In this document: piece by piece, positions 50,889 to 60,037 of the stretch
How positions within the stretch are numbered: position 1 is the first letter of the stretch
How the letters are laid out: the number at the start of each line of letters is the position of its first letter
Source: Elusimicrobiota bacterium
GTDB taxonomy: Bacteria > Elusimicrobiota > Endomicrobiia > Endomicrobiales > Endomicrobiaceae
NCBI GenBank assembly: GCA_031274365.1
Contig: JAISQF010000019.1
Span: forward strand, 1 to 64,000
Length of the DNA: 64,000 nucleotides
Direction of reading: 5' to 3'
Made by a program: the position numbers and the translations under genes
The notes under the pieces: generated by a model
Told to the model about the DNA's origin: nothing
What the model saw: only the letters and a program-made list of their open reading frames with translations
The model's database searches: none

Positions 50889-51488
50889 ATGACGAAATTA
50901 ACTAAAAAACAACAAGATGTTATGAATTTTATTGAAAATTATTTTGCGCAATATTCAAATATGCCCACAATTAGAGAAATTGCGCAGCATTTCAATATTT
51001 CAATAGCTCCAGTTCAAAAATATCTTAAAATTTTGGAAAGAAAAGGCGCTTTGAATAAAAAAATCGGCGTTTCAAGAGGAATTGAGCTGACAAATATAAA
51101 AAAGTTAATCCCTGTTAACGTTGTCGGGAGCGTTCACGCGGGAACTTTTTTAGAGCCTATTGAAGATATACAAAATCAAGTTTTTGTCGATGCGGACATC
51201 ACGCGCGGCAGAGAGTGCTTTGCTCTAAAAGTTAAAGGAGATAGTATGCAGCCTTCTGGCATAGTGGAGGGCGATACAGTCATAATATCCAAAGACAGCG
51301 TCGTGTCAAACGGAGATATTGTCGTGGCTTTAGTCAATGAAGAGGCCGCTATAAAAATATATACAAAACTGCTTAATGATAAAATCTGCTTGTCTTCCAC
51401 CAATCCTGATTACCCCCCGTTATACACCGATCCCGACAAATGTAAAATTCTTGGGAAGTTAATTCATCTGATAAGAGAATATAGATAA
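50889..51488 (+). CDS. lexA: LexA repressor
   Basis: LexA represses SOS genes and self-cleaves when RecA is activated. The 199-residue protein has an N-terminal winged helix-turn-helix (TIREIAQHFNISIAPVQKYLKIL, about 27-49). The cleavage site is Ala84-Gly85 (SVHAGTF), with catalytic Ser119 (KGDSMQP) and Lys156 (AAIKIY), exactly the positions of the E. coli protein. The recognition helix (NISIAPVQKYL) is unlike the proteobacterial one, so its operator probably differs. It lies directly upstream of the CRISPR-Cas locus, 600 nt before cas9 in the same direction. Confidence 0.95.
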   Translation: MTKLTKKQQDVMNFIENYFAQYSNMPTIREIAQHFNISIAPVQKYLKILERKGALNKKIGVSRGIELTNIKKLIPVNVVGSVHAGTFLEPIEDIQNQVFVDADITRGRECFALKVKGDSMQPSGIVEGDTVIISKDSVVSNGDIVVALVNEEAAIKIYTKLLNDKICLSSTNPDYPPLYTDPDKCKILGKLIHLIREYR

Positions 51489-51883
51489 AACAACAACTCC
51501 CTGATATTTTTGCATTTATCACATCCTTAAACTTTCTAATTTCTAACAAATTAAATATCAATTATTTCTTATTTCAATGATAACTTTTTATTAGCGCGAT
51601 ACTTTCAATTAAAATAACTATGACTTCCTTATCTTCTAATCTATATATTGAAATCCATTTACTGTATAAAAGCATTATAAAATTGGCAATAGTATTCCAT
51701 AAAATATTGAACTATTATCAAAAACATAAGCAATAATAAATTAATAAATAATTTTGATGTTTTATTCAAAAATTTACAAAATCTTGGTTTGGTTTGGACA
51801 AGAAATTTATGATGACTTCTAAATTGTATAATGGATTAACAGAGATGTCTTAAAAATTTTGCGGATTTGCAACGGATGCCCTA

Positions 51884-51987
51884 TAAAAGAGGATTCCCCT
51901 GCCGCCGCTAAGGCAACAGGGGAAGTTCAACCTCGGAAAAATTATTATAGCAACCTTTCTCTCTCTTAAGTAAAATATGCTATATTT
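51884..51987 (-). ncRNA. tracrRNA of the type II-C CRISPR system
   Basis: The minus strand carries an anti-repeat (51970-51941): GAGAGAGAAAGG then TTG then CTATAAT. It pairs with the 5' part of the crRNA-sense repeat (GTTATAG-TTT-CCTTTCTCTCTC) as two helices of 12 and about 7 bp around an internal 3x3 loop, the usual upper/lower stem with bulge. After a short linker comes a 13-bp hairpin, TTCCCCTGTTGCC with GGCGGCAGGGGAA around loop TTAGC (51924-51894), nested between GAGG and CCTC, then CTCTTTTAT as a weak termination signal. Two base pairs of the hairpin are G.U on this strand and would be C-A mismatches on the other, which fixes the strand. A longer form ending near 51851 (AATTTTT) is possible. 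It would guide Cas9 with crRNA. Confidence 0.88.
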
Positions 51988-52088: not shown

Positions 52089-55000
52089 ATGGAAAAAAGA
52101 GTTTTAGGGCTTGATATCGGAATTGCCTCAATCGGCTGGGCAATTGTTGATTTTGATGATAAATTTAATAAAGACGATGAGAATAAAGAGAATGATAAAA
52201 GCGGCAAAATCGTAAAAGCCGGGGTCAGAATTTTTACAAGAGCGGAAACGCCAAAAGACAGAGAGTCGCTTGCCAAGCCCAGAAGGGAGGCCAGAGGACA
52301 AAGAAGACGAATAGAAAGAAGAGTTGAGAGATTAAAAGCAGTCAGGGAGCTTTTTATAAAACATAAATTAGTTTCTAAAGAAGCAATAGATATATCAAAT
52401 CAAGACAATATATACACAAAACTAAACAGAACAAACGGGCAAGATAAAGACAAAGAAAATCCCGCAAAAGTTTGGCAGATTAGAATGGAGGGTTTGGATA
52501 GAAAATTGAGCAATGAGGAATTCGCAGTTGTTTTAACGCATTTGGCAAAACATAGAGGATATAAATCATTAAGAAAGTCTGAAGCGAAAGATAAAAAAAC
52601 CGGCAAGATGTTGCAAGAGATAATTAAAAATAAAACAAAGTTGACGGAAAGTAATTACAGGACGATAGGCGAGATGTTTTGCAAGGATGAAAAATATAAA
52701 GCTCATAAACGCAATAAAGGCGGCGAATATATCAATACGGCTTCTCGAGAATTGATTGAAGAAGAGGCAAAGAAAATTTTTGACAAGCAAAGACAGGAGG
52801 GTAATAATTTTGCAAGTGCAGAAATTGAGAAAGAATATTTACAAATAGCGTTTGGACAAAGACCGGCGGGAAGCGTTGATAAAATGGTGGGTTTTTGCGC
52901 TTTAGAAAAAGGTGAGAAAAGAGCGCCTCGCGACAGTTATAGCGCTGAACTTTTTAAGGTTTTAGATATGATAAATAAAACAACTTTTATTGAGGACACG
53001 GGTGAGATAAAGAATTTTACACAACCGGAAGTATTAAAGATTGTGGAAATTGCTAAAAACAGTAGAGAAGTTACTTATGCCAAAATAAAAAAAGAATTAA
53101 ATCTAAAAGATTCTGTAAAGTTCAGCGGTGTTGATTATACAAAGGACGCTAAATCAAAAGGTGAAAAGAAAGTTTTTGTTTCTATGAAAACTTATCATGC
53201 TATAAAATCCGCTATAAAAAATTTATCGCAAGAAAAATGGGATAATTTAGAAAATAACACTGATCTTTTAGATTCTATAGTAGATATAATTGCAAATCTT
53301 AAAGAGGATGAAAAAATAGAGATAGCACTTAAAAAAATTGGAATAGAGCAAGAAATTATAGAAATATTGTTGGAGTTTGCATTTAGTAAATTTAATAATT
53401 TATCTTTCAAGGCTTTAAGAAAAATAAGACCATTTCAACTTGAAGGGCAAAATTACACAACGGCTTGCCAAAGTGCGGGATATTCGTTAAAGCAAGAAGG
53501 GGAAAAAGGAAAGTTTTTGCGCAATCCCACAGATGAGGAAAAAATTTCTGTGCCGACAGTTGCGAGAGCTTTAGCTCAGACGAGAAAAGTTATAAATGCG
53601 TTGATAAGAGAATTTGGACAATTTGATCAAATCATTATAGAAACTGCAAATGAATTAAAAAATGGCAAGTTTGCCAGGGTAGAAATAGAAAAAGGACAAA
53701 AAGAATTTCAGGCACAAAAAGAAAAAATATTTAATGAATTAAAAGAAATTTTGAAATATAATCCGGATAAAAAAACACAAGAAAAATATCGTTTATGGAA
53801 AGAGCAAGACGAGAGAAGCGTTTATTCAGGCAGGAAAATAACGATTGAAGATATTAAAAATACAGGTACGCTTGAAGTTGATCACATTATTCCTCTAAGT
53901 AAGTCAATGGATGACAGCTATAATAATAAAGTCGTATGCTTTGCAAAGGAAAACCAAGATAAAGGAAATAATATTCCATTTGATTATTATAAAAATAAAA
54001 GCGACGGCACGAGTTGGGATGAATTCACAGCTATCGTCAATAGTATGGCCAATATGAAATTTGCAAAAAAGAAAAGATTACTTGCTCAAACTTTTGACTT
54101 AGAGGGTTTTATCAAAAGAAATATAAATGACACAAGATACGCCACAAGATATATAAAAAATTTTTTAGATAACAATCTTGAATTCACAAAAAATGATTCT
54201 ATAGGAGTAAAAGTTCAAGCAAGAAGCGGAGGTTTTATTTCTCTTTTGAGACATCATTGGGGAGTGGAAAAAAAGAGAGAAGATACGCATTTGCATCATG
54301 CTAAAGATGCGATCGTTATAGCTTGCTCCACACAAGGAATGGTGCAATGCATTTCAGAAGTTAGTCAAAAATATGAAAATAATAGATATAGGATGGGGAT
54401 GATTAGAGAAGAAACAAAAGAACGTATTCCTAAACCATGGGAACATTTTGTCGAGGATGTGAAAGAAGCGACTAAAGATATTTTTGTATCTTTTGCGCCA
54501 AGACATAATGTTACGGGAGCGGCTCACAAAGAAACTATTTATAGTAAAAAAGCTCTTGAGAAGTTAAATCAAAAACAAAAAGAAATAGAAGCTATGATTC
54601 AAAAAACTTCAGACAAAAAGGAAATAGATAGATTAAAAAGAGAGTTAGAGGATGAAAAAAAGAAATTGAATTTTGTTACAGTAAAAAAACCTTTAACAGA
54701 TCTTGGGAAAAATGATATAGACAATATTTCTTGCGACAAAAATTGCGGACTAATTAAAGTTTTGAGAGACAGAATGAATGAATTTAATAATGATACAAAA
54801 TTAGCTTTTGCCAAGCCCATTTATATGCCGACAAATGATCCAAAGAAAAGAGATCGGATAATAATACGCTCTGTAACAATTAAAGATTATGGAAAGACCG
54901 GCATTGAAATTCGTCAAGGATTGGCGGAAAGAGGTGAAATGGTAAGAGTTGATGTTTTTACAAAAGATAATAAATATTATCTTGTTCCGATATATGTGTC

Positions 55001-55409
55001 GGATTTTAGAAAACCTGAAAATAAAAAGGATGAATTGCCAAATAAAGCTGTAGTCGCGGGTAAGGATGAAAGCGAGTGGGTAATTATAGATGAAAACTAT
55101 AAATTTAAGTTTAGTTTGTTTAAAAATGATTTGATATATGTGAAGGATAAAGAGGGAGAAGAAAAGTTTGTGTATTTTAAAGGACTCCATAGAGGAACTG
55201 CAGCAATTACTGGAGTGGATCACCAAGAAATCCCCAAAAAACAAAATGAATGGACAAAAGGAAGTAAAACATTATTAGATTTTAGAAAATATCAAGTGGA
55301 CGTTCTTGGTAATCGCACGGAAGTAAAACATGAAAAAAGAATGCCCGCATATATAAATACTAAAAAATCCAAAAAGGACAAAAAATCTAAAAAGGACAAA
55401 AAACAGTGA
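52089..55409 (+). CDS. cas9: CRISPR-associated endonuclease Cas9 (type II-C)
   Basis: Cas9 cuts DNA matched by crRNA:tracrRNA. At 1106 residues it is in the compact II-C size range. RuvC-I has Asp9 in VLGLDIGIASIGWA, and the arginine-rich bridge helix is at about 59-90 (RREARGQRRRIERR). RuvC-II has Glu518 in IIIETANEL. The HNH domain has Asp598-His599 in EVDHIIPLSKS, with Asn613 and Asn622. RuvC-III has His737 and Asp740 in HHAKDAIVIA. All catalytic residues are intact, so the protein should be active. A predicted coiled coil spans about 815-860 (LNQKQKEIEAMIQK), and the protein ends in a tandem KKSKKDK tail rich in lysine. Its stop overlaps the cas1 GTG start. Confidence 0.97.
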   Translation: MEKRVLGLDIGIASIGWAIVDFDDKFNKDDENKENDKSGKIVKAGVRIFTRAETPKDRESLAKPRREARGQRRRIERRVERLKAVRELFIKHKLVSKEAIDISNQDNIYTKLNRTNGQDKDKENPAKVWQIRMEGLDRKLSNEEFAVVLTHLAKHRGYKSLRKSEAKDKKTGKMLQEIIKNKTKLTESNYRTIGEMFCKDEKYKAHKRNKGGEYINTASRELIEEEAKKIFDKQRQEGNNFASAEIEKEYLQIAFGQRPAGSVDKMVGFCALEKGEKRAPRDSYSAELFKVLDMINKTTFIEDTGEIKNFTQPEVLKIVEIAKNSREVTYAKIKKELNLKDSVKFSGVDYTKDAKSKGEKKVFVSMKTYHAIKSAIKNLSQEKWDNLENNTDLLDSIVDIIANLKEDEKIEIALKKIGIEQEIIEILLEFAFSKFNNLSFKALRKIRPFQLEGQNYTTACQSAGYSLKQEGEKGKFLRNPTDEEKISVPTVARALAQTRKVINALIREFGQFDQIIIETANELKNGKFARVEIEKGQKEFQAQKEKIFNELKEILKYNPDKKTQEKYRLWKEQDERSVYSGRKITIEDIKNTGTLEVDHIIPLSKSMDDSYNNKVVCFAKENQDKGNNIPFDYYKNKSDGTSWDEFTAIVNSMANMKFAKKKRLLAQTFDLEGFIKRNINDTRYATRYIKNFLDNNLEFTKNDSIGVKVQARSGGFISLLRHHWGVEKKREDTHLHHAKDAIVIACSTQGMVQCISEVSQKYENNRYRMGMIREETKERIPKPWEHFVEDVKEATKDIFVSFAPRHNVTGAAHKETIYSKKALEKLNQKQKEIEAMIQKTSDKKEIDRLKRELEDEKKKLNFVTVKKPLTDLGKNDIDNISCDKNCGLIKVLRDRMNEFNNDTKLAFAKPIYMPTNDPKKRDRIIIRSVTIKDYGKTGIEIRQGLAERGEMVRVDVFTKDNKYYLVPIYVSDFRKPENKKDELPNKAVVAGKDESEWVIIDENYKFKFSLFKNDLIYVKDKEGEEKFVYFKGLHRGTAAITGVDHQEIPKKQNEWTKGSKTLLDFRKYQVDVLGNRTEVKHEKRMPAYINTKKSKKDKKSKKDKKQ

Positions 55410-56302
55410 GCTGGCGAACAATATTTTTTCAAAACCCTTGTGCGCTAACTCTTAAAAATTCACAGTTGCATTGCAAATTTCAAGATATGACGGTTCGCGA
55501 TATTCCTTTAGAAGATATTTCGGTTATTGTTTTAGAATCAAATCAAATAAATTTAACATCCGCTTTAATATCGGAATGCGCTCAAAAAAATATAGTAATA
55601 TTTGCTTGCGACGCTTCGCATATGCCTTGCGGAATTTATATGCCTTTTAATCAGCACAGCAGGTTTAGTCAGATTGCAAATTCGCAAAGCAAATGGGACA
55701 TTGCGTTTAAGAATAGGATTTGGCAAAAAATTGTAAAGCAGAAAATACACAATCAAGCGGCTCTAATAAAAAAATATTCTTTTGATAATTATGAAATTTT
55801 AAAAGGCGCGCAAGGGAGAGTTCAGTCTGGGGACAAAACCAATTGTGAGGCTTTTGCCGCAAAAGTTTATTGGGAAAGTATATTTAATGAATTTCAAAGA
55901 AACGAAGATTCTGACATTAGAAATTCCGCTCTAAATTATGGATATGCAATTATTAGAGGGGCAGTTTCTCGGAGTTTAGCCGCAAGCGGTTTTATGATGT
56001 GCTTTGGAGTTCATCATTCAAACGACTTAAACGCTTTTAATTTATCCGATGATATTATGGAAGTTTTTAGACCTTTTGTAGATAATATTGTTATAAATAT
56101 TTTTAAGGACAATGATTTGGAAAAAGAACTTTCAAAAAACCACAAGCAGCTGCTTGTATCCGTATTGTCTTGTGATTGCATATTAAATTCTAAAAACAGT
56201 AATTTACTTACATCAATTAACAATACGGTAGAATCTTTTATGAATGCTTCTCGAGAATTAAATCCGGATAAACTTTTACTCCCGGAGTTTAGAGAACAAT
56301 AA
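55406..56302 (+). CDS. cas1: CRISPR-associated endonuclease Cas1 (type II)
   Basis: Cas1 integrates new spacers together with Cas2. The 298-residue protein has the N-terminal beta domain and the C-terminal alpha domain with metal ligands Glu148 (TNCEAFAAKVYW), His204 (FGVHHSNDLNAFNL) and Glu219 (DDIMEVFRPFVD), all present. These match Glu149, His205 and Glu220 of the Streptococcus protein. The start is GTG, overlapping the cas9 stop by 4 nt (GTGA), so the two are translationally coupled. cas2 follows after 2 nt. Confidence 0.96.
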   Translation: MSWRTIFFQNPCALTLKNSQLHCKFQDMTVRDIPLEDISVIVLESNQINLTSALISECAQKNIVIFACDASHMPCGIYMPFNQHSRFSQIANSQSKWDIAFKNRIWQKIVKQKIHNQAALIKKYSFDNYEILKGAQGRVQSGDKTNCEAFAAKVYWESIFNEFQRNEDSDIRNSALNYGYAIIRGAVSRSLAASGFMMCFGVHHSNDLNAFNLSDDIMEVFRPFVDNIVINIFKDNDLEKELSKNHKQLLVSVLSCDCILNSKNSNLLTSINNTVESFMNASRELNPDKLLLPEFREQ

Positions 56303-56304
56303 AA

Positions 56305-56625
56305 ATGGATGCGAGATTTATGAGAATTATTGTATTTTTTGATTTACCTACGGAAACCGCCGAAAACAGACGCGATGCGGCAAGATTTAGAAATGATTTG
56401 ATAAAAGACGGTTATTATATGCTGCAATATTCAGTTTATTGTCGAATATGCAGAGGACTGGACAGCTTGGATAAACATATAAGGAGACTTATGTCGCGCG
56501 TTCCGCCGGAAGGAAATGTAAGGGCTCTTGAGGTGACGGAAAAACAATATGGGAGAATGAAAATTATCTTAGGCAAAAAGCAAATTGTCGAAGAAATAGA
56601 TGATAGACAATTACTGCTATTTTAG
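56305..56625 (+). CDS. cas2: CRISPR-associated protein Cas2 (type II)
   Basis: A 106-residue ferredoxin-fold partner of Cas1 in spacer acquisition. It starts MDARFMRIIVFFDLPTET with the conserved Asp13, and contains GYYMLQYSVYCRI and the C-terminal VEEIDDRQLLLF typical of type II Cas2. Its last codons and TAG stop lie inside the first diverged repeat unit (56616-56651). No csn2 or cas4 follows, so the locus is subtype II-C. Confidence 0.95.
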   Translation: MDARFMRIIVFFDLPTETAENRRDAARFRNDLIKDGYYMLQYSVYCRICRGLDSLDKHIRRLMSRVPPEGNVRALEVTEKQYGRMKIILGKKQIVEEIDDRQLLLF

Positions 56626-56848
56626 TAAATATTTTCAAATACTATAAAAATCCTAAAACCCGATTCCAGCCCACATCGATTAGTATTTTAATAAACATTT
56701 ATTAATACTATAAAAATAAAAGGAATTAAAAGTTTGCGGATTAAGGGTTGTTTTAGTAGATATTTTCGAATACTATAAAAATTATATTGATGAGCAAAAT
56801 CCGATATGGACGGTTGTTTTAGTAAATATTTCCTCATACTATAAAAAT
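56616..56848 (+). CRISPR. Four diverged repeat units with 66-nt period: degenerate second CRISPR-like array
   Basis: Four 36-nt units lie at 56616-56651, 56682-56717, 56747-56782 and 56813-56848, separated by unrelated 30-, 29- and 30-nt sequences. End-to-end spacing is 66, 65 and 66 nt, the same as in the main array. All end with the invariant 13-mer ATACTATAAAAAT and share TTTTA(G/A)TA near the start. The middle differs between units. Units 3 and 4 begin GTTGTTTTAGTA, recalling type II repeats of the form GTT-TAG...AAAT, so their crRNA-sense strand would be plus, opposite to the main array. The repeat differs from the main one (about 15 of 36 positions agree). Unit 1 overlaps the cas2 stop codon. 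Alternatives are a tandem set of small hairpins (TAGTA...TACTA occurs in each) or a regulatory leader. Confidence 0.6.
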
Positions 56849-56851
56849 AGA

Positions 56852-56890
56852 AAACACAAAATGCATTGAATTATCAATGATTTTGTGTTT
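56852..56890. terminator. 17-bp hairpin between the diverged units and the main array
   Basis: AAACACAAAAT pairs with ATTTTGTGTTT (11 bp) and, past one bulged G, CATTGA pairs with TCAATG around an ATTA loop. On the minus strand it is followed by TCTATTTTTATAG, so it would terminate the main-array transcript before it reaches the cas genes. On the plus strand it could end transcripts from cas2 or the diverged units. It ends 4 nt before the first main repeat. Confidence 0.7.
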
Positions 56891-56894
56891 ATCT

Positions 56895-59800
56895 ATTTTA
56901 TCAGATCCGAGAGAGAAAGGAAACTATAACAGCACCAGATAGTCGAACTAATATCTCTTTATTTTATCAGATCCGAGAGAGAAAGGAAACTATAACGTAA
57001 AAATCTCTGATATTTCTTCAGTATCTATTTTATCAGATCCGAGAGAGAAAGGAAACTATAACATCTCGTCAATAAGTTCCTTTTGCGCCTCAATTTTATC
57101 AGATCCGAGAGAGAAAGGAAACTATAACGTGTCTTTGCAATACTTACAGTGATAAATTATTTTATCAGATCCGAGAGAGAAAGGAAACTATAACTCCAAA
57201 ATGTCAACGCTTTCTATTTTTACCATTTTATCAGATCCGAGAGAGAAAGGAAACTATAACTCCTGATTTTGCGACTTTGAGTTATCAGATATTTTATCAG
57301 ATCCGAGAGAGAAAGGAAACTATAACATCACTCCTTTCTGCCTTTAGTGCGTCCGCATTTTATCAGATCCGAGAGAGAAAGGAAACTATAACTGAAAAAA
57401 TGATTACAGCACTGCTCGGCGGATTTTATCAGATCCGAGAGAGAAAGGAAACTATAACTTATTCAAAAGGCATATTTTGTGATTGGATATTTTATCAGAT
57501 CCGAGAGAGAAAGGAAACTATAACAGTTTTTTAATGTTTATAGCATTGAATTTAATTTTATCAGATCCGAGAGAGAAAGGAAACTATAACTTTCTCTGCC
57601 TCTTCCGGCAGCTCATACGGATTTTATCAGATCCGAGAGAGAAAGGAAACTATAACGCGACCCCAGAGCAAATTCACAATCCTTTTATTTTATCAGATCC
57701 GAGAGAGAAAGGAAACTATAACTCAGGTTTTCTATAACTCCCGCCCTCAATAATTTTATCAGATCCGAGAGAGAAAGGAAACTATAACCGTATTCATTGA
57801 TAGACGAGGATGGCGACAAATTTTATCAGATCCGAGAGAGAAAGGAAACTATAACATCACGCTCGCACTCTTACGGCCTCTTCAGATTTTATCAGATCCG
57901 AGAGAGAAAGGAAACTATAACGAACAAGGAATAAATATGAACAAAGAATTTATTTTATCAGATCCGAGAGAGAAAGGAAACTATAACGCGTCTGGCGATG
58001 TCACTCCAAAGTGTGTTATTTTATCAGATCCGAGAGAGAAAGGAAACTATAACTATAAAGTCAATTCCCGTTATAATAAATTCATTTTATCAGATCCGAG
58101 AGAGAAAGGAAACTATAACCGAGACTTTGTTTATATCCCGTTCCCTTTTATTTTATCAGATCCGAGAGAGAAAGGAAACTATAACGCTTATCGCGGCGAC
58201 AATAAAAATTACATTATTTTATCAGATCCGAGAGAGAAAGGAAACTATAACATTAAATCGTCCGACTTATAAAGACATTGAATTTTATCAGATCCGAGAG
58301 AGAAAGGAAACTATAACAGCAGAGCCGATAAGCGCACTGTATGAAAGATTTTATCAGATCCGAGAGAGAAAGGAAACTATAACTAAAGGTCGGGCAAGCA
58401 GCGCAGGAGACAAATTTTATCAGATCCGAGAGAGAAAGGAAACTATAACTTGAATTGGTTCTATATGTATTCCACTAAAATTTTATCAGATCCGAGAGAG
58501 AAAGGAAACTATAACCATTATCTTTTTCTCCCCCGTCAATCAAATATTTTATCAGATCCGAGAGAGAAAGGAAACTATAACTCATATTTCCAAGCGGGCG
58601 CGTAATCGTCGGATTTTATCAGATCCGAGAGAGAAAGGAAACTATAACATTTTTGTTTTGCTCCTCTAATTCTTTTTTATTTTATCAGATCCGAGAGAGA
58701 AAGGAAACTATAACGCTCCTGTCGCGTAATTTAAGAAACCTCCGATTTTATCAGATCCGAGAGAGAAAGGAAACTATAACAGACAAAAACGAAATATATT
58801 TAGAGATGTTATTTTATCAGATCCGAGAGAGAAAGGAAACTATAACTGTTAAAAAACTTCATAGTCTTATGCCTCCATTTTATCAGATCCGAGAGAGAAA
58901 GGAAACTATAACTATGCCTCTTTAATATTAAGGACAGACGAAATTTTATCAGATCCGAGAGAGAAAGGAAACTATAACGGAAAAAACTGATAATACGAAA
59001 TTTGGAGATTTTATCAGATCCGAGAGAGAAAGGAAACTATAACGGTCGTCGGGGTTTGCCGCCTGCCCGCCAGATTTTATCAGATCCGAGAGAGAAAGGA
59101 AACTATAACTTATCCAATGACCTATGCTAATATAGTCCTATTTTATCAGATCCGAGAGAGAAAGGAAACTATAACCTATCCAATGACCTATGTTAATATA
59201 GTCCTATTTTATCAGATCCGAGAGAGAAAGGAAACTATAACCAAAAAACGCCCGTGCAACGAACATCATAAATTTTATCAGATCCGAGAGAGAAAGGAAA
59301 CTATAACCTTCGCAAATCATAATTGAGAAAGTCTTGAATTTTATCAGATCCGAGAGAGAAAGGAAACTATAACGATGTTTTTATGGTTTGTCGTCGGTTG
59401 GTTATTTTATCAGATCCGAGAGAGAAAGGAAACTATAACCACTGACGGCTCAACATAAGTGATTTTTAGATTTTATCAGATCCGAGAGAGAAAGGAAACT
59501 ATAACAAGTTATCAGCGATCACGTTATGATCCCCCATTTTATCAGATCCGAGAGAGAAAGGAAACTATAACCTATTTTAGCGGCAGGGATGGGCTGTTGA
59601 GATTTTATCAGATCCGAGAGAGAAAGGAAACTATAACACTCGACGAGCTAAACACATTGACATTATAATTTTATCAGATCCGAGAGAGAAAGGAAACTAT
59701 AACAAACAAAATACAGAGGCGTTTTGTAATGCCATTTTATCAGATCCGAGAGAGAAAGGAAACTATAACAATCAGTTGCAACGGTTGTTCGGGAAGTTGA

Positions 59801-60037
59801 TTTTATCAGATCCGAGAGAGAAAGGAAACTATAACTCTGTTAATATATACTCGTTTAATGTCGCCATTTTATCAGATCCGAGAGAGAAAGGAAACTATAA
59901 CAGAAACGCAAGTTATAAGTGTTTATTATAAATTTTATCAGATCCGAGAGAGAAAGGAAACTATAACTGAGTTTTGTTTGTTCGTCTGTTAATCCCAATT
60001 TTATCAGATCCGAGAGAGAAAGGAATTTATCTATAAG
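56895..60037 (-). CRISPR. Main type II-C CRISPR array, 48 repeats and 47 spacers
   Basis: Repeats of 36 nt start at 56895 and recur every 66 nt. On the plus strand they read ATTTTATCAGATCCGAGAG...GGAAACTATAAC. Spacers are 30 nt, with 31 nt at 57789-57819 and 58582-58612 and 29 nt at 58979-59007. The crRNA-sense strand is minus: it begins GTTATAG as type II repeats do and pairs with the tracrRNA anti-repeat. Each repeat then ends CTGATAAAAT, an extended -10 (TG-N-TAAAAT), so every spacer may have its own promoter as in Neisseria. All repeats are identical as far as I checked except the rightmost (59998-60037), which has a 4-nt insertion and a changed first base. The spacers at 59110-59139 and 59176-59205 differ at only two bases. 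Confidence 0.97.

Follow-up and report, generated by a model that had tools for sequence, protein, structure and literature searches.

What stands between cas2 and the type II-C CRISPR array of this Elusimicrobiota genome, and how did it come to be there? Four units of 36 nt recur in this interval at distances of 66, 65 and 66 nt from start to start, and they are followed by a regular array of 48 repeats. To our knowledge, the natural origin of new CRISPR arrays and of their repeat sequences is poorly documented. The DNA analyzed here, referred to as the window, is a 64,000-nt stretch of one contig from a 1.04-Mb draft genome that is 59% complete.

Organization of the CRISPR-Cas locus

The locus is organized in the order lexA, tracrRNA (on the minus strand), cas9, cas1, cas2, the four units, a 46-bp leader and the main array. 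The three cas genes lie on the plus strand: cas9 (52089–55409) encodes a protein of 1106 amino acids (TIGR01865, 746.8 bits), cas1 (55406–56302) a type II Cas1 (TIGR03639, 297 bits), and cas2 (56305–56625) a Cas2 with the C-terminus QLLLF (TIGR01573, 85.3 bits). The probable tracrRNA gene spans 51850–51985 on the minus strand, with both ends estimated, and its anti-repeat (51944–51967) pairs with the main repeat in a duplex of -30.1 kcal/mol, a value that none of 200 shuffles equalled. No close relative of the Cas9 was found in the genus or family; the best match in the phylum, in genome G232, is 46% identical, and this distance suggests that the locus may have been transferred horizontally. 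The contig itself starts with a tandem array of the pentanucleotide GTTGT (positions 1–118, more than 20 copies).

The main array (56895–60033, crRNA on the minus strand) contains 48 repeats of 36 nt, 47 of which are identical, and 44 of its 47 spacers are 30 nt long. The leader (56849–56894) adjoins it at position 56895, and the last repeat (59998–60033) is damaged at its far end. The cas-distal terminal repeat is likewise degenerate in the loci of G329, G278 and Ilyobacter; for G189, G135 and G325, a script detected no such damage. Because the degenerate repeats are cas-distal, the acquiring end, and with it the leader, is most likely on the cas2 side of the main array. This polarity agrees with the available text of PMC12638026 and PMC12080349, in which type II-C arrays have promoters in their repeats and take up new spacers at the end that is 3' on the crRNA strand. 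Two neighboring spacers of the main array, numbers 34 and 35 (59110–59139 and 59176–59205), are identical except at 2 of their 30 bases, which could reflect either two acquisitions from variant invaders or the duplication of one unit followed by drift.

A second array beside cas2

The four units, R1 (56616–56651), R2 (56682–56717), R3 (56747–56782) and R4 (56813–56848), read on the plus strand and enclose the spacers S1 (56652–56681, 30 nt), S2 (56718–56746, 29 nt) and S3 (56783–56812, 30 nt), which show no similarity among them. R1 is the leader-distal unit and R4 the leader-proximal one. The unit length and the spacer lengths are those of the main array. A periodicity detector requiring at least four copies found the units and the main array, and nothing else, between positions 51001 and 61000, and nothing between 1 and 51000. 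At an offset of 66 nt, the flank between cas2 and the main array reaches an identity of 30/34, compared with a maximum of 23/34 and a 99th percentile of 22/34 in a null of 300 window pieces of 300 nt. A second array is thus present beside cas2. The 13-mer ATACTATAAAAAT ends all four units and is absent elsewhere in the window on both strands, and GTTGTTTTAGTA opens R3 and R4 only. An earlier sequence-only reading of this stretch had described the periodic units with their unrelated spacers, the invariant end, the start common to two units, and the overlap of the first unit with the cas2 stop codon, and all of these are borne out here.

In the reverse-complement orientation, R1, R3 and R4 resemble the main repeat to an extent that 2.0%, 0.5% and 2.0% of background 36-mers match, respectively; on the same strand the likeness is unremarkable (27%, 8% and 49% of the background score as high). 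For R2, the most diverged unit, the figure is 17% in both orientations. The opposite orientation that had been assigned to the units is borne out.

Pairwise, the units differ at 4–9 of their 36 bases. Ten of the 36 columns vary, all of them within the first 23, and the invariant 13-nt end has a probability under plain drift of 0.0045 if that end is specified, 0.0085 for either end and 0.049 for any run of at least 13. Plain drift does not explain this block, which is the least explained feature of the array. It forms the leader-adjoining part of each unit, and may have been kept for a need of the integrase while the unit was leader-proximal, or for transcription. The latter had been proposed from the -10-like TATAAA that ATACTATAAAAAT contains. 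The conservation is confirmed, and its attribution to transcription finds no clear counterpart in a promoter scan of 56500–57300, which returned 6 sites against an expected 3.9 ± 2.4. Promoter-like sites occur on the minus strand inside R1 (56648–56619) and R2 (56714–56685), R3 and R4 have none, and the sole plus-strand site (56604–56633) lies off the conserved block.

The units are copies of the cas2 end

The final cas2 codons (Leu, Phe and stop) open R1, which continues beyond the end of the gene at 56625 into intergenic DNA. R3 and R4 read TTG TTT TAG, again Leu-Phe-stop, at the corresponding position; one synonymous Leu codon distinguishes them from R1 in this stretch, and R2 has drifted. 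The Cas2 proteins of G232 and G189 also end in QLLLF, and similar tails are found in G135 and G329 (QLMLF), G325 (QFMLF) and G278 (QLDLF). Because the first two share the tail and the four further members of the closest loci have tails alike, the tail is, on this comparison of sequences, native to cas2. With a native tail and the same codons in R3 and R4, the direction of copying would be from cas2 to the repeat. The units are, accordingly, duplicates of a resident non-CRISPR sequence, as the repeats of a neo-CRISPR array are.

A palindromic leader with a junction on each face

The leader, which is common to both arrays, is a near-perfect inverted repeat. Its halves match over 26 bases with only two one-base gaps, and the match takes in the first five repeat bases on each side. 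The self-complementarity of 56836–56912 scores 42, compared with a mean of 14.2 and a maximum of 29 for shuffled sequences, none of 2000 being as good; a BLAST search of the own genome also returned the leader matching itself. As a consequence of the inverted repeat, a leader-repeat junction stands on each face. In the outward direction from the leader, TTTTGTGTTTATCT followed by ATTTTATCAG makes up the right face, the junction of the main array, and TTTTGTGTTTTCT followed by ATTTTTATAG, which resembles it, the left face. Outside the main array, no other sequence on either strand of the window matches the main junction as well as the left face does (score 34, the next being 28), and the mirror-face score in eight other loci ranges from 12 to 26.

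The leader folds into a hairpin of about -17 to -18 kcal/mol on either strand. It may perhaps also act as a bidirectional terminator, an idea taken from the fold, as a terminator scan of the leader gave none by the rules of the scan. In the six closest loci the leader between cas2 and the array is short (48–59 nt) and most of these fold as a hairpin, and palindromy may therefore be general in this group. In genome G023, which belongs to the same family, a stretch (L037 1501–1545; G023:C1:335896–335940) is 84% like the left face of the leader (E 1.5e-7). Some 50 nt separate it from the end of an array whose 32-nt repeat is unrelated, and the likeness could be due either to chance between AT-rich sequences or to a leader element common to the two loci. 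The same array contains two identical neighboring repeat-spacer units (560–625 and 626–691).

These features are most readily combined in a model in which the four units are a natural neo-CRISPR array that arose on the mirror face of a palindromic type II-C leader and was seeded from the end of cas2, and we regard this origin as probable. The inverted repeat would offer Cas1-Cas2 a junction on each of its faces. At the right face, judging from the polarity of the main array, new spacers would enter that array. At the left face, the local Cas1-Cas2 would recognize the likeness of the true junction, and its ruler would then measure 36 bp and reach into the last cas2 codons, as the exact unit length suggests. 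Three such integrations, each duplicating the 36 bp and adding a leader-adjoining spacer, would have extended the array leftwards in the order S1, S2 and S3, leaving R1 as the original copy over the cas2 stop codon and S3 as the newest spacer. A point against the model is the divergence of the units, set against the identity of the main repeats, which would mean that the events are old or that the copies were not conserved. In the work of Nivala, Shipman and Church (2018), off-array integration sites reportedly resemble the native junction, and natural cases are said to have been reported.

What this model demands of the integrase, the recognition of a junction and then a ruler, corresponds to the behavior of type II-A Cas1-Cas2 in the accessible portion of PMC6895254. 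There, the complex reads the 10 bp of leader beside the repeat, a ruler sets the second cut, and off-target sites look like leader-repeat junctions.

Pairing of the units with the tracrRNA

Whether the new repeat could be used depends on the tracrRNA. The pairing energies of R4, R3, R1 and R2 are -14.2, -11.1, -10.1 and -2.1 kcal/mol, all short of the value for the main repeat, and the units are neither identical nor nearly identical to that tracrRNA-matched repeat, as those of a working array would be. A working crRNA from any of the spacers would need tracrRNA pairing by the unit that follows it, and R2 does not pair. R4 pairs within the best 0.9% of background 24-mers; R3 and R1 are unremarkable (6–7% as good). 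Among 4030 pieces of the window of 60 nt, 69 (1.7%) pair with R4 at -14.2 kcal/mol or better.

A variant test, devised post hoc after the data had been seen, ranked each unit among the combinations of bases at the columns where it differs from another unit. R4 is the best-pairing of the 243 variants at the columns that distinguish it from R1, the copy at the cas2 end, and the best of 81 against R3; for R3 against R1 the count is 3 of 81. R2 goes the opposite way, with 2022 of 2187 variants pairing as well or better. When 300 control targets were used instead of the tracrRNA, R4 ranked alone at the top of the 243 variants for 2 of them, both among the 150 shuffles, and alone at the top of the 81 for 4; with none of the targets did it reach -14.2 kcal/mol. 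The pairing register of R4 is shifted by 3 nt from that of the main repeat. As a post hoc hint, these values suggest that R4 may have been under selection for pairing with the tracrRNA and that the repeat is perhaps becoming usable. An ancestor with better pairing that subsequently decayed would leave the same variant pattern in R4. The earlier proposal that the pairing part had drifted while transcription was kept is thus correct for R2, which lost its pairing, and fails for R3 and especially R4, which changed toward better pairing.

Taken further, the locus might represent an array that is being born and recruited, with a leader working in two directions, the cas2 tail as repeat, R4 selected, and S3-R4 guides that work; we hold this extended reading as tentative and rather doubtful. 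Under it, S2-R3 would perhaps already yield working Cas9 guides as well.

The units had also been suggested to serve a different tracrRNA. A scan of the window and one anti-repeat pattern searched in the own genome (59% complete) revealed no second tracrRNA. The 15-mer pattern, with at most 2 mismatches, gave 15 matches in that genome, 3 of them the units themselves, compared with 33 for the reversed control, and the tracrRNA candidate of the locus fits the main repeat.

Alternative origins of the array

The units could instead be what decay has left of an older or foreign array whose repeat family was its own, one of the options put forward in the sequence-only reading, or of an inverted duplicate of the main array. 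The ten variable columns, the loss of tracrRNA pairing in R2 and the partial reverse-complement likeness of R1, R3 and R4 to the main repeat would be in line with such decay. However, the four units share a derived sequence that is far from the main repeat, whereas the adjoining leader arms are almost identical, and the decay would thus have to be common to four copies and spare the leader. In addition, R1 is the native end of cas2, with the same codons in R3 and R4, so that the unit has its template within the locus. BLAST of the array against the own genome (59% complete) returned, besides itself and the leader self-match, nothing below an E-value of 0.07, and exact R3/R4-like repeat patterns were absent from viral_contigs and genome_contigs. 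We consider the remnant unlikely.

Regulation by crRNA-like guides is a second alternative. In this reading, guides from the units would steer Cas9 to the cas promoter, or pairing of the cas2 end with the tracrRNA would let RNase III cut the cas mRNA. Known kinds of crRNA-like regulators are scaRNA, CreR and the CRISPR repeat-like regulatory RNAs. The units share the strand of the cas operon and occupy its 3' end. R1, which covers the cas2 stop codon, pairs weakly with the tracrRNA in the register of R3 and R4, and S2 shares the 10-mer TTTGCGGATT with the tracrRNA gene region (51858–51867). This last match is at chance level, however: of 85 control regions, each 600 bp long, 12.9% contain one as good, and 3 of the 47 main spacers equal it; 4 nt remain between the match and the PAM-proximal 3' end of the spacer. 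The pairing of R1 is not unusual either (7% of background 24-mers), and S1 has no match of at least 7 nt upstream of cas9. Targeting of the cas promoter by the spacers was also considered as a candidate and rejected, the matches upstream of cas9 being at chance level, and autoregulation through the spacers is not supported. Regulation by these units is, in our judgement, quite unlikely.

An ordinary tandem duplication involving the 3' end of cas2, or a series of promoters or binding sites repeated independently of Cas1-Cas2, is very unlikely: the units do copy the cas2 end, ATACTATAAAAAT does hold its -10-like hexamer and R1 and R2 do contain minus-strand promoter-like sites, yet a duplication would have copied the intervening 30 nt too, units and spacers are as long as in the CRISPR array, and the promoter scan shows neither an excess of sites, nor a plus-strand site on the conserved block, nor any site in R3 and R4.

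No source of the spacers was found in phages, where the best E-value among the matches listed was 0.08 and the matches were not centered on the spacers, nor in the own genome (59% complete) or viral_contigs, searched with 24-nt cores. Controls were equally blank, with the whole main array giving E-values of 1 or worse in phages and three main spacers giving no match in viral_contigs. Because the main-array controls are also without a source, the search says nothing either way.

Relation to known systems

The integration of spacers at off-target sites is already known as such. The neo-CRISPR loci formed by non-canonical integration (Nivala, Shipman and Church 2018, Nat Microbiol 3:310, as cited in the available part of PMC11788318) likewise have spacers in a chromosomal site outside the array. 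In contrast, the array described here has three spacers, belongs to a type II-C system, adjoins cas2, where it occupies the mirror face of the locus's palindromic leader, and has a coding end as the seed of its repeat. With type II-C arrays of the Neisseria and Campylobacter kind it shares the unit and spacer lengths, the cas2-side leader and the cas genes, and it differs from them by a repeat unlike the tracrRNA-matched one, by non-identical units and by the opposite direction. Ectopic acquisition in type II-A systems also takes place away from the usual leader-repeat site, but the events described in the accessible sections of PMC7999890 and PMC8047081 concern arrays that were already there, each with a repeat of its own, whereas here a new repeat would have been made. 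The mutated oldest repeat of a type II-C array, as presented in the available text of PMC12080349, carries mutations in the tracrRNA-pairing end, as do R2 and the trailer repeat of the main array; it is a single terminal repeat of a main array, and not a second array. In literature on neo-CRISPR loci, ectopic or off-target integration, and bidirectional, shared or type II-C leaders, drawn mostly from outside subscription journals, we recognized no mirror-image array on a shared leader.

If the proposed origin is correct, the locus exemplifies a route to a new array in which a mirror leader provides the site, a coding end becomes the repeat and a ruler sets its length, perhaps followed by changes that fit the repeat step by step to a tracrRNA. 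The model predicts that palindromic type II-C leaders can direct spacer integration both ways. Array finders and orientation tools may misfile such units as decayed arrays.

Distribution among relatives

A type II cas1 is present in 47 of the 340 genomes of the phylum, the own genome included. Besides the window, the survey gave 49 type II cas1 matches, of which 38 were measurable, 8 had no array in the stretch examined and 3 had a cas2 that the script did not locate. One of the 38, in G104, showed an apparent duplication that proved to be a run of N and was dropped. None of the other 37 measurable loci has such a duplication, and none is a close relative; the best repeat spaced at 60–72 nt in their 300-nt flanks reaches at most 20/34, within the null. 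The gap between cas2 and the array is 269 nt in the window and 72 nt after subtraction of the three added units (197 nt), compared with 48–59 nt in the six closest loci, where it folds at -23 to -6 kcal/mol.

Identity to the nearest Cas9 relatives is 39–46%. G001, the only other listed genome of the genus, has no match to Cas9 or type II cas1, and genome_contigs contained no close Cas9 relative. These searches gave no strain in which the site is empty, and five plasmid Cas9 loci, four of them with a detectable array, showed no second array by the detector of at least four copies. Matches to the DNA of the units, 23–46 nt in length, occur in 8 other genomes among the 340 of the phylum. Seven of these loci were fetched; six have no periodicity above 22/34, and the seventh is the G023 locus (L037) with the leader-like stretch. 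A further type II cas1 locus, the second of its genome, is present in G084 (L124 2400–3117; G084:C7) and is accompanied by an array of long repeats of about 46 nt.
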